A stretch of DNA of 46,537 nt, from contig CAIYSL010000005.1 in NCBI GenBank assembly GCA_903928915.1, forward strand, positions 1 through 46,537, given 5' to 3'. The notes beneath the pieces were generated by a model. It saw only the letters and a program-made list of their open reading frames with translations, did no database searches and was not told the origin of the DNA. Shown here in pieces: positions 13,578 through 31,733 of this stretch. Position 1 is the stretch's first letter, and each line of letters begins with the position of its first letter. A program made the position numbers and the translations under genes. Source of the stretch: an uncultured Syntrophobacterales bacterium. GTDB taxonomy: Bacteria > Desulfobacterota > Syntrophia > Syntrophales > UBA5619.

Positions 13578-15365
13578 ATGGGTTTCAACATCTCGAAGAA
13601 GTACCTGAAGGCGGATCCCAGAAAGCTCGCGGACTGGCAGATCGCGGACATCGCGGAAGAAAACATGCCAACGGTTGACCAGTGGCGGGACAAGCTCGGG
13701 CTGCAGCCGGAAGAGATCATCCCGATGGGGAAATTGTGCAAGCTCGATTATATCAAGATCATGGAGCGGCTGAAGAAACGGCCGGACGGAAAGTACATCG
13801 AAGTGACCGCGATCACCCCGACCCCCCTCGGCGAGGGAAAATCGACGACCAGCATGGGGTTGATCGAAGGGCTCGGCAAGCGCGGGAAAAACGTGGGCGG
13901 CTGCCTCCGCCAGCCTTCCGGCGGCCCGACGATGAACGTGAAGGGAACGGCCGCGGGGGGGGGCAAATCCCTGCTCATCCCGATGACCGAATTCTCGCTC
14001 GGCCTCACCGGGGACATCAACGACATCGTCAACGCCCACAACTTGGCCATGGTCGCCCTGACCTCGCGGATGCAGCATGAGCGGAACTATGACGACGCCG
14101 AGCTGGCGAAACGGAAACTCCGGAGGCTCGACGTCGATCCGACGAACGTCGAGATGGGCTGGATCATGGATTTTTGCGCCCAGTCGCTCCGGAACATCGT
14201 CATCGGTCTGGGGGGCAAGCAGGACGGGTTCACGATGCAGTCCCGGTTCGGGATCGCCGTAAGCTCCGAACTGATGGCCATCCTTTCCATCGTCCGGGAC
14301 CTGAAGGACCTGCGGGAACGGCTGGGCAACATCGTGGTGGCCTACGATAAGAAAGGCAAGCCCGTTACGACCAGCGACCTCGAAGTGGCGGGCGCCATGT
14401 GCGCGTGGATGCGCAACACCATCAACCCCACCCTGATGTCCTCCACGGAATATCAGCCCTGCCTGGTCCACGCGGGACCCTTCGCCAACATTGCCGTGGG
14501 GCAGTCATCCATCATCGGCGACCGGGTCGGACTGAAGATGTTCGACTACCACGTCACCGAGAGCGGGTTCGCCGCGGACATCGGGTTCGAGAAGTTCTGG
14601 AACGTAAAGAGCCGGCTGAGCGGGCTCACCCCCAACGTCTCCATCCTGACGACGACGATCCGCGCCTCGAAGATGCACGGCGGAGGCCCGACGGTGGTTC
14701 CCGGCCGGCCGCTGCCCGAGGAGTACACGAAGGAGAACCTGGCGCTGCTGGAAAAGGGGCTCTGCAACATGACCCATCTCATCGGAGTGATCCGGAAGTC
14801 CGGGATCAATCCGGTGGTCTGCATCAACGCCTTCCACACCGACACGAAGCGGGAAATCGCGCTGGTCCGCAAGTATGCCGAGGCGGCCGGCGCCCGCTGC
14901 GCCCTTTCCGAGCACTGGCTCAAGGGCGGGGACGGCGCCCTCGAGCTTGCCGACGCCGTGATGGATGCCTGCAACGAAAAGGTCAAACTCAAATTCCTCT
15001 ACCCGCTCGAATTGCCGTTGCGGCAGCGGGTGGAGCTCGTCGCCAAAGAGGTCTACGGCGCCGACGGCGTCTCCTGGACCCCCGAGGCCGAGGCCAAGGC
15101 CAAACGGTTCGAGGCAGACCCTGCCATGCGGGATTTCAACACGATGATGGTAAAGACCCATCTGAGCCTGTCGCATGATCCGGCCCGCAAGGGGGTGCCC
15201 AAGGGATGGATCCTGCCGGTCCGCGACATCCTGGTGTTTGCCGGTGCAAAGTTCCTCTGCCCGGTGACGGGAACGATCAGCCTGATGCCGGGGACGGGTT
15301 CCGACCCCGCCTACCGGAGGGTCGATGTGGACGTGAAGACCGGAAAGGTGAAGGGATTATTCTAA
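13578..15365 (+). CDS. fhs: formate-tetrahydrofolate ligase
   Basis: This 595-residue enzyme makes 10-formyl-THF from formate, THF and ATP, the entry step of the methyl branch. The P-loop TPLGEGKST lies at about 83-91, followed by [21 protein letters not shown] and later the LSGLTPN and MHGGGP segments typical of the family. Length is slightly above the common 555-560, partly from a longer N-terminus. ATG 13578 has a strong AAGGAGGGGG upstream. folD follows after 16 bases, and the metVF genes lie upstream, so the operon covers formate to methyl-THF. The cyclohydrolase/dehydrogenase step is provided by FolD. Confidence 0.97.
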
Positions 15366-15381
15366 CGAAGGGGGAAATGCG

Positions 15382-16275
15382 ATGACCGCAAAACTGATCA
15401 GCGGCACCGAAGTTGCCCGGCAGATCCGGGAGGAGTTGAAGGAAGAGACGGACCGTCTGAAGGAGAAGTTCAACGTCACGCCGGGACTGGTGACGATCCT
15501 CGTGGGGCAGAATCCGGCGTCGATGAGCTACGTGACCGCCAAGCAGAAGACCTCGAAGGAGCTGGGGTTCCACTCGGTGCAGGACAACCAGCCGGAAACC
15601 ATCTCGGAGGGCGATCTGCTGGCCCTGATCGAGAAGTACAACCGGGATCCGCAGATCCACGGGATCCTGGTGCAGCTCCCGCTGCCGAAGCACATAAACG
15701 AGACGAAGGTGCTGTACGCCATCGATCCGAAGAAGGACGTGGACGGGTTCCATCCGGTGAATGTGGGGAAGCTGATGATCGGGGAGGCGGACTACCTCCC
15801 CTGCACCCCGGCGGGGATCCAGCAGCTCTTGATCCGCTCCGGCGTCAAGACCGACGGGGCGGAGGTGGTGGTCGTGGGCAGGTCGAACATCGTGGGCAAG
15901 CCGATCGCCAACATCCTCATCCAGAAGCAGAAAGGGGCCAACGCGACGGTGACGGTCTGCCACACCGGCACGAAGGAGATGGCCTTTCACACGCGACGGG
16001 CGGAGATCCTGATCGTGGCCGCCGGAAAGCCCAACGCAGTCACGGCGGACATGGTCAAGGAAGGGGCGGTCGTGATCGACGTGGGCGTCAACCGGATCGG
16101 GATGACGCCGGAGGGGAAGGCGAAGCTCTGCGGTGACGTGGATTTCGAGGCGGTGAAGGAGAAGGCGTCGCTGATCACGCCGGTCCCCGGAGGCGTGGGG
16201 CCGATGACGATCACGATGCTGATGCTCAATACCGTCAAGGCGGCGAAGCTCGCCGCGGGAATCCCAGCGGTATAG
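15382..16275 (+). CDS. folD: FolD, bifunctional methylene-THF dehydrogenase / methenyl-THF cyclohydrolase
   Basis: The 297-residue protein shows standard FolD signatures: the catalytic Lys in YVTAKQKT near residue 50-57, the dinucleotide-binding GRSNIVGKP near 166, PCTPAG, and the C-terminal PVPGGVGPMT. It converts 10-formyl-THF through methenyl- to methylene-THF with NAD(P)H and so links Fhs to MetVF. It lies 16 bases after fhs and is the last gene of the + strand operon; two hairpins follow. Confidence 0.96.
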   Translation: MTAKLISGTEVARQIREELKEETDRLKEKFNVTPGLVTILVGQNPASMSYVTAKQKTSKELGFHSVQDNQPETISEGDLLALIEKYNRDPQIHGILVQLPLPKHINETKVLYAIDPKKDVDGFHPVNVGKLMIGEADYLPCTPAGIQQLLIRSGVKTDGAEVVVVGRSNIVGKPIANILIQKQKGANATVTVCHTGTKEMAFHTRRAEILIVAAGKPNAVTADMVKEGAVVIDVGVNRIGMTPEGKAKLCGDVDFEAVKEKASLITPVPGGVGPMTITMLMLNTVKAAKLAAGIPAV

Positions 16276-16403: not shown

Positions 16404-16832
16404 CTACTGGAGCGTCGTGACTTCCGGAACCAGGCCGTCCCAGCCCTTCGGCACTATCCCCTTTTTCGTCCCCTGGAGCATCTTTCCCAGCACGACCGAG
16501 GCATCCGGCAGATCCCCATCGCTGTAGACGACGAACCGCGGCCTGAGGACGTGCGCCAGGGCCGTGGTGGCCTCGTCGCAGTTGGGGAGGACCAGGATAG
16601 TGCGAAAATCGGCCAGCAGATCGCGCCGGGTGATCAATGCACCCAATTCATCCACAAGGGTGATGTGGAATACCGCGATCGCCAGACCTTCCAGGGGTCT
16701 GCGGAGCCGCGCGTCGAGAGCGGCCAGGGACCGGCAGATCTCGATCCGGTCTCGCGGGATGTGGGAGACGACGATCCGGAGAAACCTCTTGCCGATTCCC
16801 GTCAGCGACGCCGAGTAAAACAGCACATTCAT
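16404..16832 (-). CDS. small pseudo-receiver-like protein, function unknown
   Basis: This 142-residue protein has the alternating strand/helix layout of a receiver or flavodoxin-like fold: MNVLFYSAS as strand 1, LAIAVFHI where the phosphoacceptor strand should be, TILVLPN, and FVVYSDGDLP. The expected phosphoacceptor Asp is replaced by His in AVFHI and the acidic pair after strand 1 is absent, so phosphorylation is unlikely. It is preceded by a near-perfect sigma-54 promoter (16896-16911) and lies downstream of an NtrC-type activator gene on the same strand. The start codon has AAGGAGG 13 bases away, rather far. The fold is inferred from strand pattern only. Confidence 0.6.
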   Translation of the reverse strand: MNVLFYSASLTGIGKRFLRIVVSHIPRDRIEICRSLAALDARLRRPLEGLAIAVFHITLVDELGALITRRDLLADFRTILVLPNCDEATTALAHVLRPRFVVYSDGDLPDASVVLGKMLQGTKKGIVPKGWDGLVPEVTTLQ

Positions 16833-16895: not shown

Positions 16896-16911
16896 TACAA
16901 GGGGCGTGCCA
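16896..16911 (-). promoter_or_regulatory. sigma-54 (-24/-12) promoter
   Basis: On the minus strand this reads TGGCAC-N5-TTGTA against the consensus TGGCAC-N5-TTGCA, with the invariant GG and correct spacing; the only departure is T for C at -12. It points towards the pseudo-receiver gene, whose start lies about 50 bases beyond the expected transcription start. The adjacent sigma-54 activator gene supports the call. Confidence 0.7.
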
Positions 16912-17029: not shown

Positions 17030-18505
17030 TCATCCGGCCGGGGCGGAAATCGTCCGGCCGGAGTGGAAATCGTCCGGCAATGCAGGACAGTAGCGGTACG
17101 CCTGCACCTGCGGGGTCTGGTATTTCTTGATCAGCTCGTACAGGCGGGAACGGGAGAGGCCCGATATGGCGCAAGCCTGCTTGATGCTGTCTCCTGCCAC
17201 CGCCATCAGGTCCTTGAGGTACTGCTTCTCCACCCGGACGATCGCCTCGTCCCGGAGGTCCTGGAGCTTTGGCAGCGGCGACGGCGCGGCAGCCGGAGAG
17301 GGCGGCCGGCCGGATGCGGACTTGCCGACCAGGGCGGAGCGGATCATCTGCACCCGGATGTGCGAGGGCAGATCCTTCGGGAAGACGGTGGCATTGGCGC
17401 CGGCCTCGGCCAGGACGCGTTCCAGGGCGTTGACCAGCTCGCGCACGTTGCCCGGCCAGTGGTACGCCTTCAGGGAATCGATGAATTCCGGCGAGAAGTT
17501 TATCAGCTTTTCGCCGTGTCGCTCCGCCAGACGGCTCACATGGTAGGAAACCAGGGCCGGGATGTCTTCGGGATGCTCCCTAAGCGGCGGCAGTTCGATG
17601 GTGAAGGAACGGATCCGGTACAACAGGTCGCTCCGGAACTGGCCGTCCCGGACCATCGCGTCGAGGTCGCGGTTGGTGGCGGCGACGAGCCGAAAGTCGC
17701 TGGAGAGCTCTTCTTTGCCGCCCAGCGGCCGGAACCGGCGTTCCTGCAGCACCCGGAGGAATGCCTTCTGCACGGCAAGGGGAAGCTCCCCGATTTCGTC
17801 GAGAAACAGCGTCCCGCCGTCCGCCTGTTTGATCAGCCCTTCGCGGGACCGGTCGGCCCCGGTGAAGGCCCCCTTCTGGTAGCCGAACAGCACGCTTTCC
17901 ACGAGGGTGTCCGAAAGGGTGGCGCAGTCGACCACGACGAAGTTCTTGTCAGCCCGCCGGCTGTTGTCGTGGATCGCCCAGGCGAACCCCTCCTTGCCCG
18001 TCCCCGTCTCCCCGGTGATCAGCACGCTGGTGTCGTTTTCCGAGGCATGGGAGACCCGGTCGAGACAGGCAGTGATGCTCGCAGAGCTGCCCACGATCCC
18101 CTGCCGTTTGAGCGTCATCAGCGGCTTAGGCGACAACTTGACGTCGCGGTACTGGAGCGCCCGCACCAGGGGGAGGATCATCATGTTGATCGAGGAGGGT
18201 TTTTCGAGATAGTCCCAGGCGCCGCTCTTTATGGCCAGCTCGGCCCCGTCGGGGTCGCCCGCGCCGGTCATGATGACCACCTCCGGACAGGAGAGGGTGT
18301 TGCGGAGCTCGGGAATGGCGTCCAGGCCGTTTCCGTCGGGCAGGATGACGTCGAGATAGACGACGGCAAAGCTGCTGGCCTTTGCCGCGGCGATGCCGTC
18401 CGTCAGGGTGTGGGTACAGAGGATGTCGTGCCCCCGGTCCTTGATCGCCTGGGAAAGCAGTTCCGACATCACAACGTCGTCGTCGATGATCAGGATATTG
18501 GCCAT
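17030..18505 (-). CDS. NtrC-family sigma-54-dependent response regulator
   Basis: A 491-residue activator with three domains. The receiver (1-120) has acidic residues IIDDD and phosphoacceptor Asp52 in VVYLDVILPDGNG. The AAA+ domain (about 138-375) has Walker A GETGTGKE at 165-172, the sigma-54 contact GAFTGA at 212-217, Walker B GGTLFLDE at 230-237 and the GNVREL segment. A Fis-type HTH lies near the C-terminus (about 440-475). ATG 18505 with GGGAG upstream is preferred over a TTG at 18529. It is divergent from the Ehr-like operon and upstream of the sigma-54-promoted pseudo-receiver gene, so it probably regulates one or both. Its cognate kinase is not obvious here. Confidence 0.92.
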   Translation of the reverse strand: MANILIIDDDVVMSELLSQAIKDRGHDILCTHTLTDGIAAAKASSFAVVYLDVILPDGNGLDAIPELRNTLSCPEVVIMTGAGDPDGAELAIKSGAWDYLEKPSSINMMILPLVRALQYRDVKLSPKPLMTLKRQGIVGSSASITACLDRVSHASENDTSVLITGETGTGKEGFAWAIHDNSRRADKNFVVVDCATLSDTLVESVLFGYQKGAFTGADRSREGLIKQADGGTLFLDEIGELPLAVQKAFLRVLQERRFRPLGGKEELSSDFRLVAATNRDLDAMVRDGQFRSDLLYRIRSFTIELPPLREHPEDIPALVSYHVSRLAERHGEKLINFSPEFIDSLKAYHWPGNVRELVNALERVLAEAGANATVFPKDLPSHIRVQMIRSALVGKSASGRPPSPAAAPSPLPKLQDLRDEAIVRVEKQYLKDLMAVAGDSIKQACAISGLSRSRLYELIKKYQTPQVQAYRYCPALPDDFHSGRTISAPAG

Positions 18506-18781
18506 ACGTGAACTCCCGTGTTTGTTCAATGGGCACGTGCCGTCGTGGCGGCGCTCCGGCAGCAGAAGATCCGGGGTACGGGCGGGCAGTCCGGCTGCGA
18601 TCCGACCGACTCTACAAGCACAGTATCGGCAATCCGCGGGAAAGCTTTAGCCCTTTCCACAGGAAAACCGGTCACCCGTCCGGGCCGCAAAAAAGGGAAA
18701 AAATGTGCCCCCTGGTGAAAAAACGGTTGCCTATTGACGGAAATGGGTGTAGAAGCGGCCAACCTTTGCTGGTTGAAACCG
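18506..18781. promoter_or_regulatory. divergent regulatory region between the NtrC-type regulator and the Ehr-like operon
   Basis: No gene is seen in this 276-base gap. It holds a perfect 10-bp palindrome GGCACGTGCC (18532-18541), a possible activator-binding site. A weak sigma-54-like match with correct GG-N10-GC spacing (18694-18709) points towards the Ehr-like operon and lies 34 bases before ATG 18743. The -24 side is poor (GGGAAA for GGCACG), so the promoter call is tentative. Confidence 0.35.
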
Positions 18782-19315
18782 ATGTTATCCGAGATACTTA
18801 GTGTAAAGAATCCGTTGATCGCGCCGCAGCCCGCTGCCGGAACCGCCGAGGTGCTCGCAGCCGGCCGCGAGATCCGGGAGCGGGTGAAGAGGCTGTTTCA
18901 CCGGTCGCTGGCGATCCGGGTCGTGACCGCCGGCTCGACAAACGCCTGTGAACAGGAGCTGGTAGCCCTGGGGAACGCCTTTTACGACGTGGAGCGGTTC
19001 GGGGTCCGGTTTGTCGCCTCACCCCGGCATGCGGATATGCTGATCGTGACCGGCCCGGTCAGCCGCAACATGCGAGAGCCCCTCCGCCGTACCTACGAGG
19101 CCATGCCCGGACCGAAGATCGTCGTCGCCCTGGGTGACGATGCCGCCGACGGGGGGATATTCCGCGGAGGCTACGCGGTCCTAGACGGCGCCGAGGCAGT
19201 GGTCCCGGTTCATTACCGCATCCCCGGCGATCCGCCGTCCGCATACACGATCCTCTGTTCGCTCCTGGCGATCCTCGCCGACCTGGACGGAAAGGAGGCG
19301 CCTCGTTCGGCATGA
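18782..19315 (+). CDS. HyfI/HycG/NuoB-like small subunit of an Ehr-type complex, cluster ligands mostly lost
   Basis: This 177-residue protein aligns with the hydrogenase-4/Ech small subunit (VERFGVRFVASPRHAD, TGPVSRNMREPLRR, YEAMPGPK, ADGGIF, VPVHYRIPG). Four cysteines normally hold the proximal/N2 4Fe-4S cluster in this family. Here the CNGC motif reads TNAC (Thr53, Cys56), the next Cys is Asp120 in GDDAADGG, and the GCPP Cys is Asp150 in GDPP. Only one ligand remains, so a normal cluster cannot form. The sequence otherwise looks intact and under selection. The start is uncertain: ATG 18782 fits family length, and ATG 18743 or TTG 18734 are in-frame alternatives. It overlaps the next gene by four bases. 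Confidence 0.85.
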   Translation: MLSEILSVKNPLIAPQPAAGTAEVLAAGREIRERVKRLFHRSLAIRVVTAGSTNACEQELVALGNAFYDVERFGVRFVASPRHADMLIVTGPVSRNMREPLRRTYEAMPGPKIVVALGDDAADGGIFRGGYAVLDGAEAVVPVHYRIPGDPPSAYTILCSLLAILADLDGKEAPRSA

Positions 19316-21363
19316 CCGCCCTGATCCTTTCCCCGGCCGGCTTTTCCGCGATCATCGCGGCCTTTACCGTAGGCGCCCTGGGCGCACTGCTCTTGGGCAG
19401 GCACGAGCGGGCGGCGGGTCTGTGGGGAAACCTCTGGGCCGCCGGGGGATCGCTCCTGGGGCTGCTGTATTCCGCAACCGCGCTGATCACCGGGGATGTA
19501 CCCGCCTTCGGCGTCGCCACCTCCTTTCCGCTTCTGTCGCTCTCCTTCCGGATCGACGCGCTGTCGGCCTTCTTCCTGCTCGTGATCTCGCTCGTCGCGC
19601 TGGTCAGCGCGGTGTATGCCCTGGGCTACGTTCGCCACTACTACGGCAGATACCCCCTCGGGTCGCTGGGGCTGTTCACCAACGCCTTCATCGCCGGGAT
19701 GATCCTCGTGGTGACGGCGCATCATGCCCTCTGGTTTCTGATCGTCTGGGAGCTGATGTCGCTGACGTCGTACTTCCTGGTCATCTATGAACGACGCGAG
19801 CCGGAGAACATCCAGGCAGGATCGCTGTATTTCATCATGACCCACATCGGCACCGCCTTCATCATCCTGGCCTTCCTGCTGATGTACGGCGCGACCGGCT
19901 CCTTCGATTTCGGCGCCATCGGCCGGGGGATGGCCGCCGCTTCGCCGCTTCTGCGGGACGGGGTGTTCCTCTTCGCCCTGATCGGGTTCGGGGCCAAGGC
20001 GGGGATCATCCCGTTCCACATCTGGCTTCCGGGCGCCCACCCGGCGGCGCCGTCGCACGTCTCGGCGCTGATGTCGGGGGTGATGATCAAGACCGGCATC
20101 TACATGCTGGTTAGGGTCTGCACGGACTTCCTGCCCGGGCCGCCGCCACTGTGGTGGGGGCTCACGATCCTCGGCAGCGGAGCGGTCTCGTCGCTCCTGG
20201 GGGTACTCTATGCCCTGTCCGAGCATGACCTGAAACGGCTGCTCGCCTATCACAGCATCGAAAACATCGGCATCATCCTGATGGGGTTCGGCAGTGCGCT
20301 CGTGTTTTTGTCCGCGGGGTTCACCGCGCTCGCCCTGCTCGGAATGATCGCTGCCCTGTTCCACACCCTGAATCACGCCACCTTCAAGGCCCTGCTGTTT
20401 TTCGGGGCAGGCGCGGTGATCAGCCAAACCCATACCCGGAACATCGAGGAATACGGAGGGCTTATCCGGTCCATGCCGCAAACCGCCCTGTTCTTCCTCG
20501 CCGGCTCCCTGGCCATCTCCGCGCTGCCGCCGTTCAACGGTTTTTTCAGCGAATGGATGACCTTCCAGGCCCTGTTTGCGGGGGTAGGGACCTTTTCGCT
20601 GGTTACCAAGGCGGTCTTCCTGCTGGGCGTCGGCAGCCTTGCCTTCACCGGCGGTTTGGCGGCGGCCTGTTTCGTCAAGGCCTTCGGGGTCACCTTCCTG
20701 GCCAGGCCGCGCAGCCCCGAGGCGGGGCGGGCAACGGAGGCGCCGCTGTCGCTGCGGCTGGCCATGGCGGCGTTGGCGCTGGCCACGTTGCTCCTCGGGG
20801 TGATCGCGGGCGGCGTGTCCCGCGCAGTGGGGGCGATCGTCCAGGCGCTGCCGGCATTTCAGGGCGGGGCGCTCCAGCCGGCCTCGTATACGCTCCTGCG
20901 GGTCGATACGGGATTCGCCGCGGTCTCCCTGCCGGCGCTCACGGCGGTCCTGGTCGGGGTAGCGGCCGCGGTCGCCGGGGCGGTGCACCTGCTCACCCGG
21001 GGACGGCGGGTCACGCTCGGCCGCACCTGGGACTGCGGCGCCGACCTCACGGGCCGGATGGAGATCACCGCGACCGCCTTTTCCCGGTCGATCGTCACCG
21101 TATTCCGCGGGGTGCTGAAGCCCACGGGGCAGACCGAGATCGACTACCACGACGCCCGGCTGCGGTATTTCCCCAAATCGGGCCTGGTGCGGCTGGAATT
21201 CCGAGACATCTGGGCCCAGTTCTTCTACCAGCCCCTGCAGAAGATGACCCTGGGGATCGCCGGGCAGATCAAGAAGATCCAGGTAGGCAACATCAACGTG
21301 TACATCGGGTATATCCTCGTAACCCTGACCTTTCTACTCATAATGCTGGCGGCCCGGCCATGA
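19312..21363 (+). CDS. HyfB/NuoL-like proton-translocating membrane subunit
   Basis: A 683-residue polytopic membrane protein of the antiporter-like (Mrp/NuoL) family. Conserved charged sites are present: Glu in VWELMSLTSYF near 147, the Lys in GFGAKAGIIPFHIWLP near 229, HPAAPSHVSALMSG, and the later SIENIG and HTLNHATFKALLFFGAG segments. It is expected to move protons or sodium ions across the cytoplasmic membrane. The start overlaps the small-subunit stop in ATGA; AAGGAGG lies 15 bases upstream. The stop again overlaps the next start. All channel residues appear intact, in contrast with the lost redox ligands of the two soluble subunits. Confidence 0.92.
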   Translation: MTALILSPAGFSAIIAAFTVGALGALLLGRHERAAGLWGNLWAAGGSLLGLLYSATALITGDVPAFGVATSFPLLSLSFRIDALSAFFLLVISLVALVSAVYALGYVRHYYGRYPLGSLGLFTNAFIAGMILVVTAHHALWFLIVWELMSLTSYFLVIYERREPENIQAGSLYFIMTHIGTAFIILAFLLMYGATGSFDFGAIGRGMAAASPLLRDGVFLFALIGFGAKAGIIPFHIWLPGAHPAAPSHVSALMSGVMIKTGIYMLVRVCTDFLPGPPPLWWGLTILGSGAVSSLLGVLYALSEHDLKRLLAYHSIENIGIILMGFGSALVFLSAGFTALALLGMIAALFHTLNHATFKALLFFGAGAVISQTHTRNIEEYGGLIRSMPQTALFFLAGSLAISALPPFNGFFSEWMTFQALFAGVGTFSLVTKAVFLLGVGSLAFTGGLAAACFVKAFGVTFLARPRSPEAGRATEAPLSLRLAMAALALATLLLGVIAGGVSRAVGAIVQALPAFQGGALQPASYTLLRVDTGFAAVSLPALTAVLVGVAAAVAGAVHLLTRGRRVTLGRTWDCGADLTGRMEITATAFSRSIVTVFRGVLKPTGQTEIDYHDARLRYFPKSGLVRLEFRDIWAQFFYQPLQKMTLGIAGQIKKIQVGNINVYIGYILVTLTFLLIMLAARP

Positions 21364-22289
21364 AGACGACCCTGGTCTGGACAATCCAGTTCCTCCTGAT
21401 TCCGGCGCTGTCGCCCCTGGCCGTCGGCGTCACCCGGAAGCTGAAGGCCCTGCTGCAGAACCGTCAGGGCGCCTCTCCCTTCCAGCCCTACCGCGACCTT
21501 GCCAAGCTCCTCCGGAAGGATGAGGTCATCAGCCGTGACGCCTCCTGGGTGTTTCGGGTCACCCCCTACCTCCTGTTCACCCTCACCGTCGCGGCAGGGG
21601 CCTCGATCCCGCTGGTATCGACGGCGCTCGGGAATCCCGCCACCGGCGATTTCCTGGTGGTGGTGTACCTCCTCGCCCTGGGGACCTTCTTCCTGGCGCT
21701 GGCCGGAATCGATACGGGGGGCGCCTTCGGCGGCTTCGGTTCGAGCCGGGAGATGCTGGTCGCAGCCCTTGCGGAGGGCGGACTGATCCTCGCGCTGTTG
21801 ACACTGGCCCTGCTCGGCCGGACCACCGACCTGTTCGCCCTGGCGGGCGGCATCGCCTCGCTTCCCGTCACCGATCTGGCGCCCGTCATCCTTGCCTTCG
21901 TCGGGTTCTTCGTGGCGCTCCTGGCAGAGACCGGCCGGTACCCCTTCGACAACCCGGCCACCCATCTCGAACTGACGATGATCCACGAGGCGATGATCCT
22001 GGAGTATTCGGGCAAGCGGCTCGCCCTGATCGAATGGTCCAGCGCGAACAAATACCTGCTGTTCACCGCCCTGGGGGCGAACCTCTTTTTCCCCTGGGGG
22101 CTCGCCGGATCGCTCGCCCTCGGGGAAATCGCCCTGGCCCTGACGGTGTTTCTGGGCAAGGCGCTCGTGCTGTGCGCTGCCGTGGCGCTGCTGGAATCGA
22201 CGATCGCCAAATTCAGGATCTTCCGGTTACCGGACCTCCTGTTCACCTCCTTCATCCTCAGCATCATCGCGATAGGATTGATCGGATAG
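21360..22289 (+). CDS. HyfC/HycD/NuoH-like membrane subunit
   Basis: This 309-residue membrane protein matches the NuoH/HycD/EchB family that connects the peripheral arm to the membrane pump. Visible features are the N-terminal RKLKALLQNRQGASPFQPYRD loop region (family QxRxGP-like), DTGGAFGGFGSSREM, and the acidic loop ETGRYPFDNPATHLELTMIHEA, rich in Glu and Asp as in NuoH. It starts at ATG 21360 overlapping the HyfB-like stop; longer frames run back into that gene. Its loops suggest the pump side is still built to respond to a conformational signal. Confidence 0.92.
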   Translation: MKTTLVWTIQFLLIPALSPLAVGVTRKLKALLQNRQGASPFQPYRDLAKLLRKDEVISRDASWVFRVTPYLLFTLTVAAGASIPLVSTALGNPATGDFLVVVYLLALGTFFLALAGIDTGGAFGGFGSSREMLVAALAEGGLILALLTLALLGRTTDLFALAGGIASLPVTDLAPVILAFVGFFVALLAETGRYPFDNPATHLELTMIHEAMILEYSGKRLALIEWSSANKYLLFTALGANLFFPWGLAGSLALGEIALALTVFLGKALVLCAAVALLESTIAKFRIFRLPDLLFTSFILSIIAIGLIG

Positions 22290-22292
22290 CCT

Positions 22293-22949
22293 ATGAGACC
22301 GATAGCGCCGCAGACCCTGTTGTTCCTGGAGATCGCGATCTTCAGCGCCGCGGTGTTCCTCCACCTGACCAAGAAGAACTCCTCCGCCGTGCGCCTGTAC
22401 GTCGCCCAGTCGGCGGCAGTGTCGTTTTTGCTTATGGTGCCGGCCTTCGCGGAGCCCTCGGCGCTGCTGCTGACCGCCCTCGTCGCGACGGTGGCGGTCA
22501 AACTGCTCGTCGCCCCCTATTTCTTCTTCGGCCTGATCAGGCGGCACCGGCTGAGATTTTCGGTCAGCACCTATCTCAACACGCCGGTCACGGTCCTGAT
22601 CATCGCCGCGCTGGCGGCCTTCACCCAGACGGAGGCGTTTAGGCCGCTGACGCAGCTCGCCGCCGGGGGCGATCGCAGCCTGCTGCTGTCGGTGGCGACG
22701 ATCATGATCTCGCTGTTTCTGATCATCAACCGGAAGGGGGCGCTCTCCCAGATGCTCGGCATACTCTCCCTGGAAAACGGCATCGTCTCCTTCGCCCTGT
22801 TCGCCGGTCTCGAACAGAGCCCGGGCCTGCAGCTGGGCATAACCTTCAACATCCTCATCTGGATCATCATCGCCACGGTGTTCATCTCGATGATCTACCG
22901 CCAATTCGGGTCGCTCGACGTGACCGCGATGAAGAGGCTGACGGAATAG
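22293..22949 (+). CDS. HyfE-like membrane subunit
   Basis: This 218-residue hydrophobic protein resembles HyfE of hydrogenase-4, whose C-terminal part is NuoK-like. The segments LINRKGALSQMLGILSLENGI and the C-terminal MIYRQFGSLDV match the family; the Glu in SLENG corresponds to the conserved NuoK-type membrane Glu. It sits three bases after the HyfC-like gene and three before the HyfF-like gene, in hyf gene order. Confidence 0.88.
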   Translation: MRPIAPQTLLFLEIAIFSAAVFLHLTKKNSSAVRLYVAQSAAVSFLLMVPAFAEPSALLLTALVATVAVKLLVAPYFFFGLIRRHRLRFSVSTYLNTPVTVLIIAALAAFTQTEAFRPLTQLAAGGDRSLLLSVATIMISLFLIINRKGALSQMLGILSLENGIVSFALFAGLEQSPGLQLGITFNILIWIIIATVFISMIYRQFGSLDVTAMKRLTE

Positions 22950-22952
22950 ACC

Positions 22953-24395
22953 ATGGCACTGCTCGTTCTGACGCTTACCCCGCTTATCGCCGCCCTCGCC
23001 TCGCTGGCGATGCGGGCGGTCCGACCGCTGGAGGTGCTCGCGGTCCTGGCAGCGCTTCTGGAATGCGGCGCCGCGGCCGTGGCGGCGGTGACGGTTTCCG
23101 CAGCCGGCCGGTACGGGTCCGGAGCCCTCGCACTGGACAGCCTCGGGATGGTCGTTCTGACGACCGTCGTACTGGTGGGGACCGCCGCATCCCTGTACTC
23201 GGTCGGCTATCTCCGCCAGGAGGTGGCCAAAGGGATCATCGGGTTCCGCCGGGTGAAGCAGTATTACGTCCTGCTGCACCTGTTTCTGATGGCGATGCTG
23301 TACGGCGTCTGCACCGTCAACCCGATCATGATGTGGATCGCCGTCGAGGCCACGACCCTGTCGACGGCCTTTCTGATCAGTTTCTACAACAAGCCCACGG
23401 CGATGGAGGCGGCCTGGAAATACCTGATCATCAACTCCATCGGGCTGCTGCTCGGGTTCTTCGGGACGCTCCTCTTTTTCGCCGCCGGTTCGCCCGGGGC
23501 CCAAAGCGCCTTCGTCACCTGGGAGGCGCTGGGAGGCGGCGCCGGCGCCTTCAATGCGACCCTCGTGAAGATTGCCTTCCTGTTCATCCTGATCGGCTAC
23601 GGCACGAAGACGGGACTGGTGCCGATGCATACCTGGCTTCCCGATGCGCACAGCAAGGCCCCGTCGCCGATCAGCGCCCTGCTGTCGGGGGCGCTGCTGA
23701 ACTGCGCGCTGCTGGCGATCCTGAAGTTCAAGGTGATCGCCGACGCCGCGCTCGGGCCGGCCTTTGCGCAGAATCTGCTGATCTTTTTCGGGCTCGTGTC
23801 GATCGCGATTCCCGCGTTCATCATCGTCATCCAGAAGAACTACAAGCGCCTGTTCGCCTATTCGAGCGTCGAACACATGGGGATCATCACGCTCGGGTTC
23901 GGGTTCGGCGGACTCGGCTCCTTCGCCGCGCTGTTGCACATGATCTACCATTCACTGGCGAAATCCGTGCTGTTCTTCTCGGCGGGCAACTGCCTGCTGA
24001 AATACGGCTCGACGAAAATCGACCGCGTCGGGGGGGCCCTGGACGCGCTGCCGGTCACCGGAAAGGTCCTCCTCGTGGGGTTTCTGGCAATAACCGGCGT
24101 GCCGCCGTTCGGGCTGTTCCTGACCGAAGTGTACATCCTGACCGCCGGTATCGCCGCGCATCCGCTGGTGGTGGTCGTGGCGCTGTTCCTGCTGGCGCTG
24201 ATCTTTGTGGGGTTCTTGCGGTTCATCGCGGCGATGGTGTTCGGCGCCGCCCCGGAACCGCCGGTGCGCGGCGAGATGAACCCCTTGACGATCGTCCCTC
24301 CGGTGGCCCTGCTGGCGCTGCTGCTGACCATCGGCATCTACCTGCCGCCGCCGCTGGAGGCGTGGATCACCGCGGCAGCGGAGATCCTCCGATGA
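22953..24395 (+). CDS. HyfF/NuoN-like proton-translocating membrane subunit
   Basis: A 480-residue polytopic membrane protein, the second antiporter-like subunit of the complex. Conserved sites include the Glu in WIAVEATTLSTAF, the Lys in GYGTKTGLVPMHTWLPDAHS, SKAPSPISALLSG, SSVEHMG and the HSLAKSVLFFSAGN segment. It is expected to add a further ion channel. Its stop overlaps ATG 24392, so translation is coupled to the large-subunit gene. Confidence 0.92.
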   Translation: MALLVLTLTPLIAALASLAMRAVRPLEVLAVLAALLECGAAAVAAVTVSAAGRYGSGALALDSLGMVVLTTVVLVGTAASLYSVGYLRQEVAKGIIGFRRVKQYYVLLHLFLMAMLYGVCTVNPIMMWIAVEATTLSTAFLISFYNKPTAMEAAWKYLIINSIGLLLGFFGTLLFFAAGSPGAQSAFVTWEALGGGAGAFNATLVKIAFLFILIGYGTKTGLVPMHTWLPDAHSKAPSPISALLSGALLNCALLAILKFKVIADAALGPAFAQNLLIFFGLVSIAIPAFIIVIQKNYKRLFAYSSVEHMGIITLGFGFGGLGSFAALLHMIYHSLAKSVLFFSAGNCLLKYGSTKIDRVGGALDALPVTGKVLLVGFLAITGVPPFGLFLTEVYILTAGIAAHPLVVVVALFLLALIFVGFLRFIAAMVFGAAPEPPVRGEMNPLTIVPPVALLALLLTIGIYLPPPLEAWITAAAEILR

Positions 24396-24406
24396 AGGAG
24401 CGGGCC

Positions 24407-25969
24407 ATGGACAGGAGTGCAGCCTGGGATCGATACCTGCCGCCGAAGGCGGCCATCAGCGAGTACGGCCGCATCGCCGCCTACGAACTGCAGCCCGGCG
24501 AAGTCGTGGAGGAGTGCCGGCGCCTGTACCGCGACCTGCCGCTGAAGATCATCACGGCCTTCGACGAGCGGCAGGAGACCGGGGCGTTTCGGATCATGTA
24601 CCTCTTCGGCGTTCCCCGGGAGAACCGCTTCCTGGCGCCCTTCATCCGGGTGCAGGAGGCGTTCCCGTCGCTCACCCCCGTGATCCACGAGGCGTCCACG
24701 TACGAACGGAAGATCAAGACCTTCTTCGGGTTGATCCCGGAGGGCCATCCCGACCCGCGATCGATCATCCTGCATGAAAACTGGCCTGCGGGGCTCTTCC
24801 CCTTGCGGAAGGATTTTCCCGGGGATTCGCGTCCCGCCGAGGCCGCAGGGGAATTCCCCTTCCGGCGCATCGGCGGGGAAGGGGTGTACGAGATCCCGGT
24901 CGGCCCGGTCCACGCGGGGATCATCGAGCCGGGCCATTTCCGGTTCAGCGTGGCCGGGGAGGAGATCCTGTTCCTCGAACCGCGGCTCGGGTACTCCCAC
25001 CGGGGGTGCGAGAAACTCTTTGAGACGCTGGCGCCGGCGGACCGGCTCCGGCTCGCGGAGCGGATCTCCGGCGACAGCTCCTACAGCCATTCGCTCGCCT
25101 TCTGTCTGGCGCTGGAGGAGCTCGGCGGGACGCGGCCGGGAGAACAGGCGGGTTTCCTGCGGGTCCTCTTTTCCGAGCTCGAGCGGATCGCCAACCACCT
25201 GGGCGACATCGGCGCGATCATGACCGACGCGGGGTTCAATTTCGGCGGGGCCCAGGGGGCGCGTCTGCGCGAAACGGTGATGCGGATGAACGACGCCCTG
25301 ACCGGGAGCCGGTTCCTGCGGGGGGTAAACCGCATCGGCGGCGGGATCTCCCGGCAGATCCCGGCGGAGACTGCCCGGCTGATCGACGGCGAGCTGCGGG
25401 GGCTGCTCGCCGAATTCACCGCGGTCATGGCGGTGGCCGACAACAGCCATTCGCTCCTGAACCGCCTCGAACATACCGGCACCCTCGCGGCGCAGACCGC
25501 GCGGGATCACGGCGTCATCGGAGTTGCCGGCAAAGCGGTCGGGTTTTCCGCCGACGCGCGGGTCGACTACCCCTACGCCGCCTACGGCACCCTGGTCCCG
25601 GAGGTCGTCACCGAAACGGGCGGCGACGTCCTGGCGCGGTTCACCGTGCGCGTCCGGGAGGTCCGCAACTCCCTCGACCTCGCCCGGCGGGCGCTGGGGG
25701 GGCTGTCCGCGGCGGATGATCCCGTCGCACCGGAGGCCGGTGCGCTCGCGCCGAACGCCTACGCGCTCGGCATCGTCGAAGGGTGGCGGGGCGACATCGT
25801 CTATCTGGCGGCCACCGATGCCCGCGGCAAGATCAGCCGGGTCGACGTCCGGGACCCCTCCTTCCTGAACTGGACCGCCCTGAGTTACGCGGCTGTCGGC
25901 AACGTGGTGCCCGATTTTCCGCTGATCAACAAGAGCTTCAACCTCTCCTATGCCGGAAACGACCTCTGA
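24407..25969 (+). CDS. HyfG/HycE-like large subunit lacking all NiFe-site cysteines (Ehr type)
   Basis: This 520-residue protein joins a NuoC-like N-terminal domain (1-150) to a NuoD/hydrogenase large-subunit domain (from about 160; GPVHAGIIEPGHFRF, LGYSHRGCEK). In true NiFe hydrogenases two CxxC motifs hold the metal. Here the first is replaced by ERISGDSSYSHS (218-229) and the last by the C-terminal INKSFNLSYAGNDL, so no NiFe site can form. This is the mark of energy-converting hydrogenase-related (Ehr) complexes, known from Geobacter and other lineages. ATG 24407 has AAGGAG six bases upstream and is preferred over ATG 24392. It is the last gene of the operon; no ferredoxin-like HyfA/HyfH gene is present. 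Confidence 0.9.
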   Translation: MDRSAAWDRYLPPKAAISEYGRIAAYELQPGEVVEECRRLYRDLPLKIITAFDERQETGAFRIMYLFGVPRENRFLAPFIRVQEAFPSLTPVIHEASTYERKIKTFFGLIPEGHPDPRSIILHENWPAGLFPLRKDFPGDSRPAEAAGEFPFRRIGGEGVYEIPVGPVHAGIIEPGHFRFSVAGEEILFLEPRLGYSHRGCEKLFETLAPADRLRLAERISGDSSYSHSLAFCLALEELGGTRPGEQAGFLRVLFSELERIANHLGDIGAIMTDAGFNFGGAQGARLRETVMRMNDALTGSRFLRGVNRIGGGISRQIPAETARLIDGELRGLLAEFTAVMAVADNSHSLLNRLEHTGTLAAQTARDHGVIGVAGKAVGFSADARVDYPYAAYGTLVPEVVTETGGDVLARFTVRVREVRNSLDLARRALGGLSAADDPVAPEAGALAPNAYALGIVEGWRGDIVYLAATDARGKISRVDVRDPSFLNWTALSYAAVGNVVPDFPLINKSFNLSYAGNDL

Positions 25970-26141: not shown

Positions 26142-27587
26142 TTACCGGTAGTTCTGTTCGAGCAGATTCTTCCGGTATTCGAGCGGACGGATGCCTTCTT
26201 GCTTCCGGAAGATTCTGGCAAAGTGGCTGGGATCCTGATACCCGACCTCAAGGCAAATCTCGATGATACTCAGGTCCGTCTGTTGCAGAAGTTTTTTTGC
26301 GATCGATATCCTGACCGACGTCAGATACTCGAGAAAGGAGATCCCCATCTCGTTTCGAAAAAGATGGCTCAGGTAGAAGGGATTAATTTCCACTGCCGCG
26401 GCGATTTTTTTCAACGAGATGTCACGATTGTAATTTCCCCAGATGAATTCTTTTGCCTTTATGAAGATCCGCGTGTGCCGGATGTTTCGGTTTTGATAGA
26501 TACATTCGAAGAGTTGGTCAAAGGCCTTCCTGAGAAAGTAATACAGGGTCTCCTGGGAATCGTCTTTCGAAAGGTTCTGAATGCACTGATACTTGAACCC
26601 GAGGATCTCCTCGAGATTGGCACCTGCCTCAACCGCAGCGCGGGCAATGATGAAGATGATCTCCAGCGCCCTGGCCTTGAGCACTCCGATGTGTTCGTGA
26701 CTCCGAAAGAGGGTCGTTCCCAGCAGCTCGTCCAGTAATTCTTTCGCTTTCTTCCGGTCCCCCATCTTGATGAGGTCGATCAGCTCGTTTTCCTTGTACA
26801 GATCGCTCCGGGAGTATGGCTGCGCGGGCGCGCAAGACGGTTCAGACGGGTCGTTCTGTTTACTCAAGAAGAGACCTTCCGCCAGAACCGCTTGCTGCCG
26901 AGTTATTTCCTGCCGTATCTGATGGGACGTGGAATCAACCCGCGAGAAGTAATTTGCCGTCATGAACAGGAGGTCTGCGGCTGCTTGCACCCTTCGTTCC
27001 GAAAAAACGGGCACCTCCGAAAGGGTTTGCAGAAGCGATGGCTCATCAAGCGAGAGGTCTTTCACCTTGGTACGGATGGTCTGCTCCGTCTGGGGATTCA
27101 TATGTCGCAAGAGAATCGGACCGCACACAAAGGCGGATGCGCTTTTCGCTCCGTCGGGAAGAGCAGCAGTGAATTCAATCATGTCGGTATGACATTGAAA
27201 AACATAGGGTTCCCCTGTTTTTAAGGCTATCTGGATGGCCCGGTTGATATCGATCAGACAGCGTTCTCTCCCCAGCGAGCTGCTACGGATGATTTCACAG
27301 AAGGGATGGCCCTGTCCGGTGATCGACTGAACGACTCCGTGACCGCTCAGCGGGAGGAGACGGACCTGCAGTTTCATCGCCTCTTGAAAAGAATCGAGGA
27401 GTCGGACGAAGGCATTTCCCCTGGTCCGGTCGGCGTCCGGCACCTGAGGAATGGAGGGAAGGCTCTCGCCGGTCGCGGCGGAGAATCTGCGATCCTGACG
27501 GGTAACGTCCCCCCTCGTCCGGACCCGCTTGCTCCGCAGCGGGACTCGAAGATTGAGCCCGCCGGCGGATTCAGGGTTCAAGACCAC
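26142..27587 (-). CDS. PocR-domain AraC-family transcriptional regulator
   Basis: A 481-residue regulator with a PocR-type sensory domain at about 55-210 (FCEIIRSSSLGRERC, CHTDMIEFTAAL, FVCGPILLR), a linker helix region, and a C-terminal AraC double HTH at about 375-475 (ISLKKIAAAVEINPFYLSHLFRNE, GYQDPSHFARIFRKQEG). PocR domains bind small organic ligands and are often found beside cobalamin-dependent pathways. GTG 27587 has GGGAGG seven bases upstream and lies inside the end of the preceding corrinoid-protein gene, so the two are coupled. It most likely controls the methyltransferase genes around it; AraC operators were not located. Confidence 0.9.
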   Translation of the reverse strand: MVLNPESAGGLNLRVPLRSKRVRTRGDVTRQDRRFSAATGESLPSIPQVPDADRTRGNAFVRLLDSFQEAMKLQVRLLPLSGHGVVQSITGQGHPFCEIIRSSSLGRERCLIDINRAIQIALKTGEPYVFQCHTDMIEFTAALPDGAKSASAFVCGPILLRHMNPQTEQTIRTKVKDLSLDEPSLLQTLSEVPVFSERRVQAAADLLFMTANYFSRVDSTSHQIRQEITRQQAVLAEGLFLSKQNDPSEPSCAPAQPYSRSDLYKENELIDLIKMGDRKKAKELLDELLGTTLFRSHEHIGVLKARALEIIFIIARAAVEAGANLEEILGFKYQCIQNLSKDDSQETLYYFLRKAFDQLFECIYQNRNIRHTRIFIKAKEFIWGNYNRDISLKKIAAAVEINPFYLSHLFRNEMGISFLEYLTSVRISIAKKLLQQTDLSIIEICLEVGYQDPSHFARIFRKQEGIRPLEYRKNLLEQNYR

Positions 27588-28242
27588 TCTTTTTCCTCCC
27601 GGCCGTTCTTTCGGTGGTCAGCTCCTTCGCTTTCTTTACCCCGTCCAGTGCGTCCATCCCGAATTCATCGGCTCCGATGCTGTCGGCAAAACCTTTGGTG
27701 ATGGGGGCTCCCCCGACAAGGATCTTTACCCGCCCCTTTAGTCCCGCCTTTTTCAGGGCGATGATGGTATCTTCCATGGAATGCATGGTGACGGTGTAGA
27801 GACAGGAGAGCAGCAGAAGGTCTGGTCTCTCTTTCCTTACCGCTTTGACGAATGATTCGGGCGTCACATCGATGCCGAGATCGATGATCTCGAACCCGTT
27901 CGCCTCCAGGAACATCAAGAAGATGTTCTTGCCGATATCGTGAACATCGCCTTTCACGGTACCGGCCACGGCTTTTCCCGCGGAGCGCGACCGTACCCGC
28001 ATCAGGGCGGGCTGAAGGGTGCCCAGGGAGAGTTTTGTCGCCATGGCCGAGACCAGGACATTGGGGAGAAAGTATTCGTAGGTCTTCCACCGCTCCCCGA
28101 CGATCTCCATGGCACGCAGGATGCCCTGCTCGATGATGTGCGCCGGATGCAGACCTTCACGGAGACATTTTCCCGTGAGAGCGGTTGCCCGATTGACATC
28201 CCCCTTCACGATTGCGCATTCAAGCTGGCGAATGGATCTCAT
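27571..28242 (-). CDS. corrinoid (B12-binding) methyl-carrier protein
   Basis: This 223-residue protein has the N-terminal four-helix cap (MtaC/MetH-like; residues 1-85) and a Rossmann B12 domain with the cobalt-ligating His101 in GDVHDIGKN, then LSCLYTVTM and VGGAPIT. It carries methyl groups between methyltransferases. ATG 28242 fits the family N-terminus, although the GGGAGG upstream is about 15 bases away. It is 3'-overlapped by the PocR-AraC gene. It differs from the corrinoid protein at 31098 and is separated from it by a terminator, so it may serve another methyltransferase partner. Confidence 0.92.
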   Translation of the reverse strand: MRSIRQLECAIVKGDVNRATALTGKCLREGLHPAHIIEQGILRAMEIVGERWKTYEYFLPNVLVSAMATKLSLGTLQPALMRVRSRSAGKAVAGTVKGDVHDIGKNIFLMFLEANGFEIIDLGIDVTPESFVKAVRKERPDLLLLSCLYTVTMHSMEDTIIALKKAGLKGRVKILVGGAPITKGFADSIGADEFGMDALDGVKKAKELTTERTAGRKKSGLEP

Positions 28243-28425
28243 AGGACTATCGCAGGTGAACCTCCCGCTCAGCGAAGCTTGTCCCGCTCGTTGCAAGGAT
28301 CGACGTTCGTTATCACTGCACAGGTACACCGCGGAGACTCGCGGGGTACGCGATCACAGGCCGATTCACTCCACTCTGTGACCGTAAGGTGCGTAAGGCT
28401 ACCACAGTTCTAAAAAAAGTGGAAT

Positions 28426-28446
28426 GGGGGGGGCGGGAGCCCCCCC
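28426..28446 (-). terminator. intrinsic terminator after the MFS gene
   Basis: An 8-bp G:C stem with a 4-base loop lies just past the MFS stop on the minus strand, and a run of seven T follows about eight bases after it. It probably ends the four-gene minus-strand operon that starts with the cytochrome. The gap 28243-28474 otherwise shows no gene. Confidence 0.6.
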
Positions 28447-28474
28447 GTATGTCGGCAGCCGTCATCGCTCCGGA

Positions 28475-29842
28475 TTAGAGATACTTTCCTGCCTCGGGCT
28501 TATATTTCCAAAGCCCGAACAGAATGGCGGAGGAGATGAATGCCGAGATGATCCAGAACCAGAAGGCGGACTCCCAGCCCCATTTGTCGGTCAGCACCCC
28601 GGTGAAGACCCCGGCCATACCGGCGCCGATGTATCCGAAGAAATCGATGAATCCGGCGGCCGACCCGGCTGCCTTGCGTGTTCCAAAATCCATCGGCACC
28701 GCTCCGATCAGGATGACCTGGGTACCCAGGACGCAGAAACCGATGATCCCCAGTGTCAGAAATCCCAAGACCCAGGCATCCTTCGGCACGCCGTAGTAGA
28801 AGAAGATGGCCATGAACCCCAGTATTCCCATGAGCAGGGCCGCGATCGGTGCCCGGCGGGACTGGAAGAACCGGTCGCTGGCCCAGCCGGAGAAGATCGC
28901 CCCGGCGATCCCGAAAAGGGGTATCGCGATCACCTTGTAGGCCGTCTTGTCGATGGCCGCTTTCTGAATCTCGAACATGTAGGTGGGTGCCCAGAGGAGA
29001 AACCCGTAGCGGATGATATCGACGAAGAAGAAGGCCCATGATACCGCCCAGACCCGGGGATTCCCGACGGTTTGCTTCAGGGTGAAGGCGAATCCTGCAT
29101 GTTCGTCCTTCTCCTTTTTCGGTTTGATCTTGGCCTTGATCGCTTCCACCGTCATCCCGGCAAACTCACCGTGCTGCTCATAGATTTCGATTGCCGGGAG
29201 ATTGACCTCCTCTGGCCTGTTCTTGAGAAGCAGGAGCGGGAGGAATCCGATGGCGGCAAAGATCAACGCCGGGCCCCAGAAACCCGCACGCCAGCCGTAA
29301 TTGGCAATCAGGTATCCCGCCAACAGCCAGGAAAGGGTGTTGCCGAGCTGATAACAGGCACCGTACCAGCCCATGCGTTTCCCCCGGGCTTTGGGGGGGA
29401 ACCACTGAGAGAGAGTCTTAATGCAGTTGGACCAGCCCCCCGCCTGGAAGAATCCGTTCAGACACCAGATCACACCGACGGCGAGAATCCCCAGTCCTAC
29501 GGACGGCCCGATCAGGACATTCATCAATGCGGACAGCATGATGGCTGCGAACAGGTAGTGCTTTGCGGAATAGCGTTCCACAAGTTGGCCATGAACGAAC
29601 TGTCCCACGGCATAGGCCCAGAAGAGGGCCGTACCGACGGCCCCCAATTGCGTTTTCGACCATCCCGTCTCCTTCATGATTCCCGGAATGGCAATCGAGA
29701 AATTCACCCTGCAGAGATAGAACGCACCGTAGGTGATCCATAACACGATGAAGATCTGATTGCGCCAGCGGGCGAATCCCCTTTCCCATTCCGCCCATTG
29801 CGCCTGCTCTTCGGGTTTCAGTGTGGATATGTCTATCGGCAT
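28475..29842 (-). CDS. MFS transporter, organophosphate/anion-type family
   Basis: A 455-residue carrier with about 12 membrane segments. The N-terminal YGAFYLCRVNFSIAIPG, GGWSNCIKTLSQWFP, and the central charged loop rich in Lys and Glu resemble the GlpT/UhpT-type (OPA) branch of the major facilitator superfamily. It follows the UroD-type methyltransferase gene after 57 bases, with AAGGAGG before its ATG. It probably imports the methylated substrate or exports the demethylated product; the substrate itself cannot be told. Confidence 0.88.
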   Translation of the reverse strand: MPIDISTLKPEEQAQWAEWERGFARWRNQIFIVLWITYGAFYLCRVNFSIAIPGIMKETGWSKTQLGAVGTALFWAYAVGQFVHGQLVERYSAKHYLFAAIMLSALMNVLIGPSVGLGILAVGVIWCLNGFFQAGGWSNCIKTLSQWFPPKARGKRMGWYGACYQLGNTLSWLLAGYLIANYGWRAGFWGPALIFAAIGFLPLLLLKNRPEEVNLPAIEIYEQHGEFAGMTVEAIKAKIKPKKEKDEHAGFAFTLKQTVGNPRVWAVSWAFFFVDIIRYGFLLWAPTYMFEIQKAAIDKTAYKVIAIPLFGIAGAIFSGWASDRFFQSRRAPIAALLMGILGFMAIFFYYGVPKDAWVLGFLTLGIIGFCVLGTQVILIGAVPMDFGTRKAAGSAAGFIDFFGYIGAGMAGVFTGVLTDKWGWESAFWFWIISAFISSAILFGLWKYKPEAGKYL

Positions 29843-29899
29843 AATACCCTCCTTCGCTTTGGATGTTAGGAAACGATCACGGTATCCCCCCTGTCCCGT

Positions 29900-31060: not shown

Positions 31061-31097
31061 CGCCGCCTCCCTTCTGTTTTTCGGCCATCGGCTTGTC

Positions 31098-31733
31098 CTA
31101 TTTGCCCAGCCAGCCCATCACTTTCTTGACGCCGGAAGGAGGATCAGGCGCATACCCGTCCGCTCCGATCATGTTCGCATAGTTCTGATCTATCGGGGCC
31201 CCTCCGATGATGACTTTCACGTCGTTACGCACATTCCGCTCCTTGAGCAGCCGCATCACGTCGTTCATGGCAAGACGGGTCGGTGTGTACAAGCAGGAGA
31301 GGGCCAGAACATCCGGTTTCTCCTTCTCCACCGTATCGACGAATTTTTGCGCGGACACATCGATGCCCAGGTCCGTAACCTGAAAACCGGATCCAACGAA
31401 TATCATCGAGACGATGTTCTTCCCGATGTCATGGACGTCCCCTTCCACGGTGCCGATGACCACTTTCCCGACGGGCGGGATGTCGCTTTTCTCCATGATC
31501 GGTTTGAGGATCGAGAGGGCATCCTTCATGGCCATCCCGGCCATCAGCAGCTCGGGAACGAATATCTGCTGAGATTCAAAAAGCTTGCCGACGGTTTCGA
31601 GACCTTTGATCAACCCTGTATTGAGGATATCGTTGACCGGTATCTTCTGCTCAAGGGCCTGCCTGGTCAGGAGCTTCACTTCATCCATCCGTCCTTTTAC
31701 GATTGCTTCTTCGATCCCTTTTAAACTGTCCAT
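31098..31733 (-). CDS. corrinoid (B12-binding) methyl-carrier protein
   Basis: A 211-residue protein with the helical cap and B12-binding Rossmann domain; His101 in EGDVHDIGKN is the cobalt ligand, followed by LSCLYTPT and IGGAPIDQ. ATG 31733 has AAAGGAGG four bases upstream and is preferred over an in-frame start at 31751. The UroD-type methyltransferase gene follows after 37 bases, so the two are the likely MtvB/MtvC-like pair. The methyl group would then go to THF through the MtrH-like enzyme encoded divergently at 32527. Confidence 0.93.
   Translation of the reverse strand: MDSLKGIEEAIVKGRMDEVKLLTRQALEQKIPVNDILNTGLIKGLETVGKLFESQQIFVPELLMAGMAMKDALSILKPIMEKSDIPPVGKVVIGTVEGDVHDIGKNIVSMIFVGSGFQVTDLGIDVSAQKFVDTVEKEKPDVLALSCLYTPTRLAMNDVMRLLKERNVRNDVKVIIGGAPIDQNYANMIGADGYAPDPPSGVKKVMGWLGK

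Follow-up and report, generated by a model that had tools for sequence, protein, structure and literature searches.

We analysed a stretch of 46,537 nucleotides (hereafter the window; GenBank contig CAIYSL010000005.1) from an uncultured Syntrophobacterales bacterium. Positions 18782 to 25969 of the window hold six Ehr-type genes in the order S-A-B-C-D-L, all running in one direction and tightly packed, so that the complete set of A, B, C, D, L and S expected of an Ehr complex lies within one operon. The genes, together with a divergent regulatory gene that adjoins them, are as follows:

17030-18529, minus strand: sigma-54 response regulator, divergent from and adjoining the operon (Pfam Sigma54_activat, 1e-64)
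18782-19315, plus strand: EhrS, 177 aa, NuoB/HycG-type small subunit without cluster ligands (Pfam Oxidored_q6, 2e-22)
19312-21363, plus strand: EhrA, NuoL/HyfB-like antiporter-type subunit (NCBIfam hydrogenase 4 subunit B, 1.8e-199)
21360-22289, plus strand: EhrB, NuoH-like subunit that joins the membrane arm to the cap (Pfam NADHdh, 5e-42)
22293-22949, plus strand: EhrC, HyfE/NuoK-like subunit (NCBIfam hydrogenase 4 membrane subunit, 1.5e-13)
22953-24395, plus strand: EhrD, HyfF/NuoM-like antiporter-type subunit (NCBIfam hydrogenase 4 subunit F, 3.7e-139)
24407-25969, plus strand: EhrL, fused NuoC/NuoD (HycE)-type large subunit (Pfam 49kDa, 4e-33; 30kDa, 1e-17)

A first-pass annotation of the window had described a tight operon of overlapping genes, and the boundaries bear this out: 4-bp ATGA overlaps occur at S/A, A/B and D/L, and gaps of 3 bp separate B from C and C from D. 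For EhrL we prefer the start at 24407, which has GGAG ahead of it, to the alternative at 24392; the 968-aa open reading frame listed by the program for this gene is an over-extension. The same annotation had stated that the membrane subunits retain their channel residues, which holds for the window (E147, K229, K260, K359 and E414 in EhrA; E138, E189, E203, E209, E214 and E278 in EhrB; K70 and E161 in EhrC; E132, K219 and K337 in EhrD) and, as detailed below, across relatives. EhrS has no N-terminal ferredoxin domain, and scans of the six genes with Pfam and NCBIfam found no ferredoxin-type gene, in agreement with the earlier claim that no ferredoxin subunit is encoded; they also found no NADH module (NuoEFG), no MrpB/E/F/G-type subunit and no DabA-type zinc carbonic anhydrase subunit. 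Rfam gave no matches.

The divergent sigma-54 response regulator is a possible regulator of the operon. No counterpart adjoins the operon at the orthologous loci searched, and the intergenic region contains no sigma-54 promoter ahead of ehrS. A near-consensus sigma-54 promoter with one mismatch lies at 16896-16911 on the minus strand, 64 bp before a gene for a 142-aa protein (16404-16832) that has no Pfam or NCBIfam match and that the sigma-54 activator gene adjoins; sigma-54-like sites across the whole window are not above chance. Elsewhere in the window, two large HdrA/GltD-like flavoproteins with several 4Fe-4S motifs (11-8265) are encoded upstream near MetF, Fhs and FolD (12601-16275), possibly forming a separate methyl-branch energy-coupling cluster. 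Positions 26142-31751 hold a corrinoid methyltransferase set, with two B12-binding proteins, a URO-D type methyltransferase, an MFS transporter and a PocR-type AraC regulator, which likely demethylates some methylated compound. A role of the Ehr-type complex as a partner of C1 (Wood-Ljungdahl) metabolism was rejected: the genes for MetF, Fhs and FolD, which precede the operon in the window, were not found at the orthologous loci searched.

In alignments of EhrS to E. coli HycG (7z0s_G) and P. furiosus MbhJ (6cfw_J), residues T53, C56, D120 and D150 fall on the four cysteines of the proximal [4Fe-4S] cluster, which confirms that Thr53, Asp120 and Asp150 replace three of them. EhrS thus has the tetrad TCDD where the sampled cluster-bearing relatives have CCCC, and it lacks the N2 ligands that the NuoB-type subunit of respiratory complex I carries. 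The alignment of EhrL to HycE (7z0s_E) likewise upholds the loss of both NiFe CxxC motifs, CGIC being replaced by S221-G-D-S224 and DPCYSC by S514-Y-A-G517, and Gly222 aligns with the quinone-site Tyr of Nqo4. This separates EhrL from the large subunits of group 4 NiFe hydrogenases, with their two CxxC motifs for NiFe, and places it, like its relatives, with Ehr, whose large subunit is without both motifs. That Ehr complexes lack NiFe ligands was, as the first-pass annotation noted, already known, being reported in two papers (PMC6349859; PMC10284858) and, for Patescibacteria, in a third (PMC7304191). HypD, needed for NiFe maturation, is missing in 20 of 26 carrier genomes.

The only cysteines of EhrS are C56 and C159. 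The possibility that shifted residues supply the missing cysteines, named beforehand as one that would overturn the claim, is ruled out: the alignment shows none, no new Cys column fills the old site and no conserved Cys in any subunit compensates. Chance or assembly error is ruled out by four further genomes of the same family, whose orthologues have the tetrads TCDD (G001), DCDD (G014), DADD (G011) and DADN (G008); gene order matches that of the window in the three with a complete operon, the contig of G001 ending within A. AlphaFold2 models of the single chains (pLDDT 87 for EhrS, 84 for EhrL) have the folds of HycG (Z 18.8, rmsd 2.8 over 144 aligned residues) and HycE (Z 43.9, rmsd 2.7 over 502), a type of search that returns known folds and is silent on function. 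Both proteins are therefore predicted to hold the shape of their homologues but not the metal ligands.

Classic Ehr complexes occur nearby, in the same order of bacteria, with CCCC and a fused two-cluster ferredoxin domain on S; their L ends in SYCG.DL, whereas that of the window's clade ends in SY(A/S)GNDL. A scan of GTDB genomes with the cluster-free query gave at least 80 named loci, these being the best matches to the query, so that the counts are not frequencies; close relatives of the query are over-represented in the sample, and metagenome-assembled genomes, some with doubtful names, make up many of the records. Together with the relatives, the scan matches include at least 55 distinct S proteins without the ligands, from Deltaproteobacteria, Dadabacteria, Lentisphaerae, Methanoregula and many Patescibacteria (Adler-, Vogel-, Levy-, Magasanik-, Kaiser-, Moran-, Staskawicz- and Uhrbacteria, and others), and at least 29 with CCCC, from Rhizobiales, Acidobacteria, Verrucomicrobia, Nitrospirae, Methanomassiliicoccus and others. 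Of 380 evenly sampled Patescibacteria, ten have a strong match. In the Lentisphaerae genome GWF2_38_69 (L063, 10001-17984; L183, 7397-14015), a cluster-free S-A-B-C-D-L set is nested between the A'B'C'D'L' genes and the S' gene of a classic Ehr operon.

T/C/D/D, first put forward as a pattern to look for in Ehr small subunits, proved too narrow. The tetrad varies (TCDD, DCDD, DADN, DVDD, TEGD, SEGD, NEGD), and what is kept is a carboxylate at position 56 or 120, with one exception, and D, N or E at position 150. Among the matches listed, all 55 cluster-free S proteins have at least one carboxylate in the tetrad and 52 have two or more; the acids at 56 and 120 are mutually exclusive (E56 in 16, D120 in 38, neither in one), and position 150 is D, N or E in every case. 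D119 is near-invariant in cluster-free S and is common in CCCC proteins too. Judged from these sequences, the old cluster site seems to have been maintained as an acidic site and not to be the product of drift, and a pair of carboxylates may possibly mimic the cluster's charge.

Trees were built from B, D and L, with S itself excluded. They place the window complex, by its membrane and large subunits, among Ehr, and cluster-free and CCCC complexes interleave in them. A quick tree of 73 complexes needs three changes; a careful tree of 44 complexes, including the Patescibacteria locus L182, needs four, three of them forced by starred branches, with the bootstrap not fully settled. The trees point to independent losses of the cluster, of which at least three are strongly supported and four is the most parsimonious number, the TCDD and TEGD clades representing either one loss or two. 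The D/A/D/N tetrad occurs in three separate lineages, represented by the same-family genome G008, Methanoregula (L102) and L182. L182 (about 8917-9670, minus strand; genome G343) encodes a classic-type S of 251 aa with D/A/D/N at the proximal site and two ferredoxin motifs, one degraded and one intact, and its L ends in SYAGNDL; it is an apparent intermediate of cluster loss. The loss is thus conserved and recurrent, beyond what a single window could show.

Purifying selection acts on the whole complex. In close pairs with measurable dS, omega is 0.04-0.17 for every subunit, which rules out a pseudogene or decay, and S has values among the lowest (0.04-0.08), including in pairs without any cluster Cys. 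Mean identity of S is 68% and 73% in two cluster-free groups, against 28-62% for the other subunits, and S is the most conserved subunit in the CCCC group as well (64%); loss of the cluster, therefore, did not relax S. Cluster-free and CCCC complexes share the conserved charged residues of the membrane arm, exceptions being few. H169, E174, H177, D223, N508, K509, Y515 and D519 of L are invariant in both kinds of Ehr, so that the old active-site pocket seems to be functional without the cluster. The same observation bears on the earlier suggestion to look for a new pocket: the pocket in L is common to cluster-bearing Ehr and hence is not new to the cluster-free variant.

Clustering of the flanking open reading frames brought up an F1Fo ATP synthase operon. 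Among the matches listed, atp genes lie beside the ehr operon on the same strand at 13 of 55 cluster-free loci and at none of 29 CCCC loci, a contrast that is suggestive only, because the available flanks differ between the groups, being shorter upstream for cluster-bearing loci, where S is usually last. Twelve of the 13 atp operons are upstream and one is downstream; the loci span both major clades (five in the TCDD/DCDD group, eight in the E56 group), and in six of them 18-277 bp separate the end of the epsilon gene from ehrS, which follows it. We estimate that this adjacency is well above chance for a genome of about 1 Mb with one atp operon. Moreover, F1 gamma is found in 231 of the 380 Patescibacteria (61%) and in all ten strong ehr carriers (0.61^10 = 0.007), with coordinates within about 10 kb of ehr in four of the ten. 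It was not found in G343, the genome of L182, which is outside the 231. No atp operon lies near ehr in the window or beside most cluster-free loci, so that the link to ATP synthase extends to the window by homology to its relatives. The recovered c subunits have a glutamate or aspartate in an H+-type context and are without the usual Na+ ligands, so that they look H+-type, and a Na+-type enzyme was rejected. That small genomes encode the complex next to an H+-type ATP synthase suggests a role in spending or rebalancing the proton gradient.

Several known systems share parts of this architecture. Cluster-bearing Ehr has the same six subunits, the same membrane subunits and channel residues, an L without NiFe ligands and the same invariant residues in L; it differs in that its S keeps the proximal-cluster ligands and, in some relatives, a fused ferredoxin domain, whereas cluster-free S is usually encoded by the first gene rather than the last and, in many relatives, stands next to ATP synthase genes. 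Formate hydrogenlyase/hydrogenase 4, a group 4 NiFe hydrogenase (HycE/HycG, 7z0s), provides the closest solved relatives of both cap subunits, but the window complex lacks NiFe ligands and cluster ligands, and neither a ferredoxin nor a formate dehydrogenase subunit belongs to it. Respiratory complex I (Nuo) has homologous S (NuoB), L (NuoCD) and NuoH-, NuoL-, NuoM- and NuoK-like subunits; unlike it, the window complex is without an NADH module and N2 ligands, and has Gly222 in place of the quinone-site Tyr. Mrp Na+/H+ antiporters are redox-free and are built from the same antiporter-like subunits, but the window operon adds a complete S/L cap as well as a NuoH-like subunit, and has no MrpB/E/F/G-type gene. 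In the literature searched, where the passages treat the large-subunit ligands, neither loss of the small-subunit cluster nor a link to ATP synthase is reported; prior mention, for example in the founding paper (Marreiros 2013), is possible.

We consider it an even call that the complex is an Ehr-type relative of complex I that works without electron transfer and is coupled to an ion gradient. Pointing to this are the absence of all redox ligands without substitutes, their recurrent loss, the conservation of S, the carboxylates, the retained channel residues, the adjacency of ATP synthase in relatives, the cluster-free S being the sole NuoB-type protein in the Patescibacteria carriers examined, and the precedent of DAB2. 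The four membrane subunits would transport H+, or swap it for another cation, through the buried Lys/Glu/His chain, and the S/L cap, no longer an electron carrier, would be retained as a gating or coupling element. In S, the cavity that once held the proximal cluster would now be an acidic carboxylate site near the entrance of the NuoH-type channel; in L, the former NiFe site would be a polar Ser/Asp/Asn/Lys pocket, the probable binding site for a proton, an ion or a small ligand. Energy would be drawn from, or handed to, an ion gradient that in many carriers would be handled by the adjoining F1Fo ATP synthase, and the most likely role would be gradient-driven: cation/H+ exchange, or the balancing of pH and gradient. 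We infer from the sequences that the complex assembles, binds no other redox cofactor and moves ions, and that the carboxylates act as proposed. The first-pass annotation had held that a conserved pump must be driven by something else; coupling other than by the usual electron path stands, whereas the pump itself had been inferred, and a gradient-using secondary device fits the evidence at least as well as a driven pump, given the ATP synthase neighbourhood in relatives. More tentatively, and with the balance tilting somewhat against so specific a history, a branch of complex I may have repeatedly given up electron transfer to become a gradient-driven machine, in which carboxylates within the former cluster cavity replace the cluster as a charge or proton switch and which in many Patescibacteria has F1Fo ATP synthase as its partner.

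Against a cap that serves only as a gate, the whole S/L cap is costly to keep, so that a catalytic role is possible, and the pocket in L, being common to cluster-bearing Ehr, may reflect an ancestral redox role. One alternative is an enzyme driven by the proton-motive force, in which the pocket in L would catalyse a non-redox step (hydration, carboxylation or hydrolysis) powered by proton flow through the membrane arm. There is a precedent in the DAB or vectorial carbonic anhydrase (DabA-DabB), where DAB2 couples a NuoL-like membrane subunit to a non-redox soluble subunit and is driven by the proton gradient (PMC13144422), and such an enzyme would fit the invariant polar pocket in both kinds of Ehr and the strong conservation of L and S. 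However, the soluble part of the window complex is a NuoB/NuoD-type cap rather than a DabA-like subunit, no metal site like the zinc of DabA is visible, and the loci share no substrate gene neighbourhood, the C1 genes of the window not being found at the orthologous loci searched; we regard this alternative as unlikely, though deserving of serious weight. An antiporter and a machine driven by the proton-motive force, like DAB, are two forms of the redox-free reading, both compatible with the sequence.

It is improbable, in our judgement, that electrons reach the cap without the proximal cluster from an unseen flavin, quinone or soluble ferredoxin docking on it. The fused two-cluster ferredoxin domain on S of cluster-bearing relatives would fit such a partner, as would the nested Lentisphaerae operon and the Ehr of Geobacter, which, according to PMC7894505, is expressed and rises in abundance on formate. 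Nevertheless, no ferredoxin-type gene recurs beside cluster-free operons, no other NuoB-type protein is present in the Patescibacteria carriers examined, the ferredoxin domain of L182 is itself partly degraded and, with the cluster gone, no relay is visible from the surface to the pocket. We rejected the idea that a second small subunit, one that bears the cluster, serves as a general partner: such a subunit is seen only in Lentisphaerae L063, where it is part of the classic operon; the window genome has no gene for one.

The free variation of residue identity at the old cluster site would suit a cap that is a mere plug or scaffold for an Mrp-like antiporter and is heading for loss, but the identity of S, the highest of the six subunits, its omega, among the lowest, and the convergence of the replacement residues on carboxylates make this quite improbable. 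A pump in which some exergonic reaction of the cap feeds the adjoining ATP synthase would account for the gene adjacency, but it is very improbable, since no candidate reaction or substrate gene is present and F1Fo may equally run as an ATPase in small fermenting genomes.

It has long been asked how electron transfer in complex I can drive ion channels at a distance. A complex with the same membrane arm and the same cap fold, but without redox centres, is a natural control and, if it moves ions, coupling could be studied without electrons. If the more tentative reading of a repeatedly evolved gradient-driven machine is true, the coupling in complex I, both conformational and electrostatic, is able to operate in the absence of redox chemistry. 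Such genes are misleadingly annotated as hydrogenase or NADH dehydrogenase; for the Patescibacteria, which are mostly without respiratory chains, they encode a candidate bioenergetic device.
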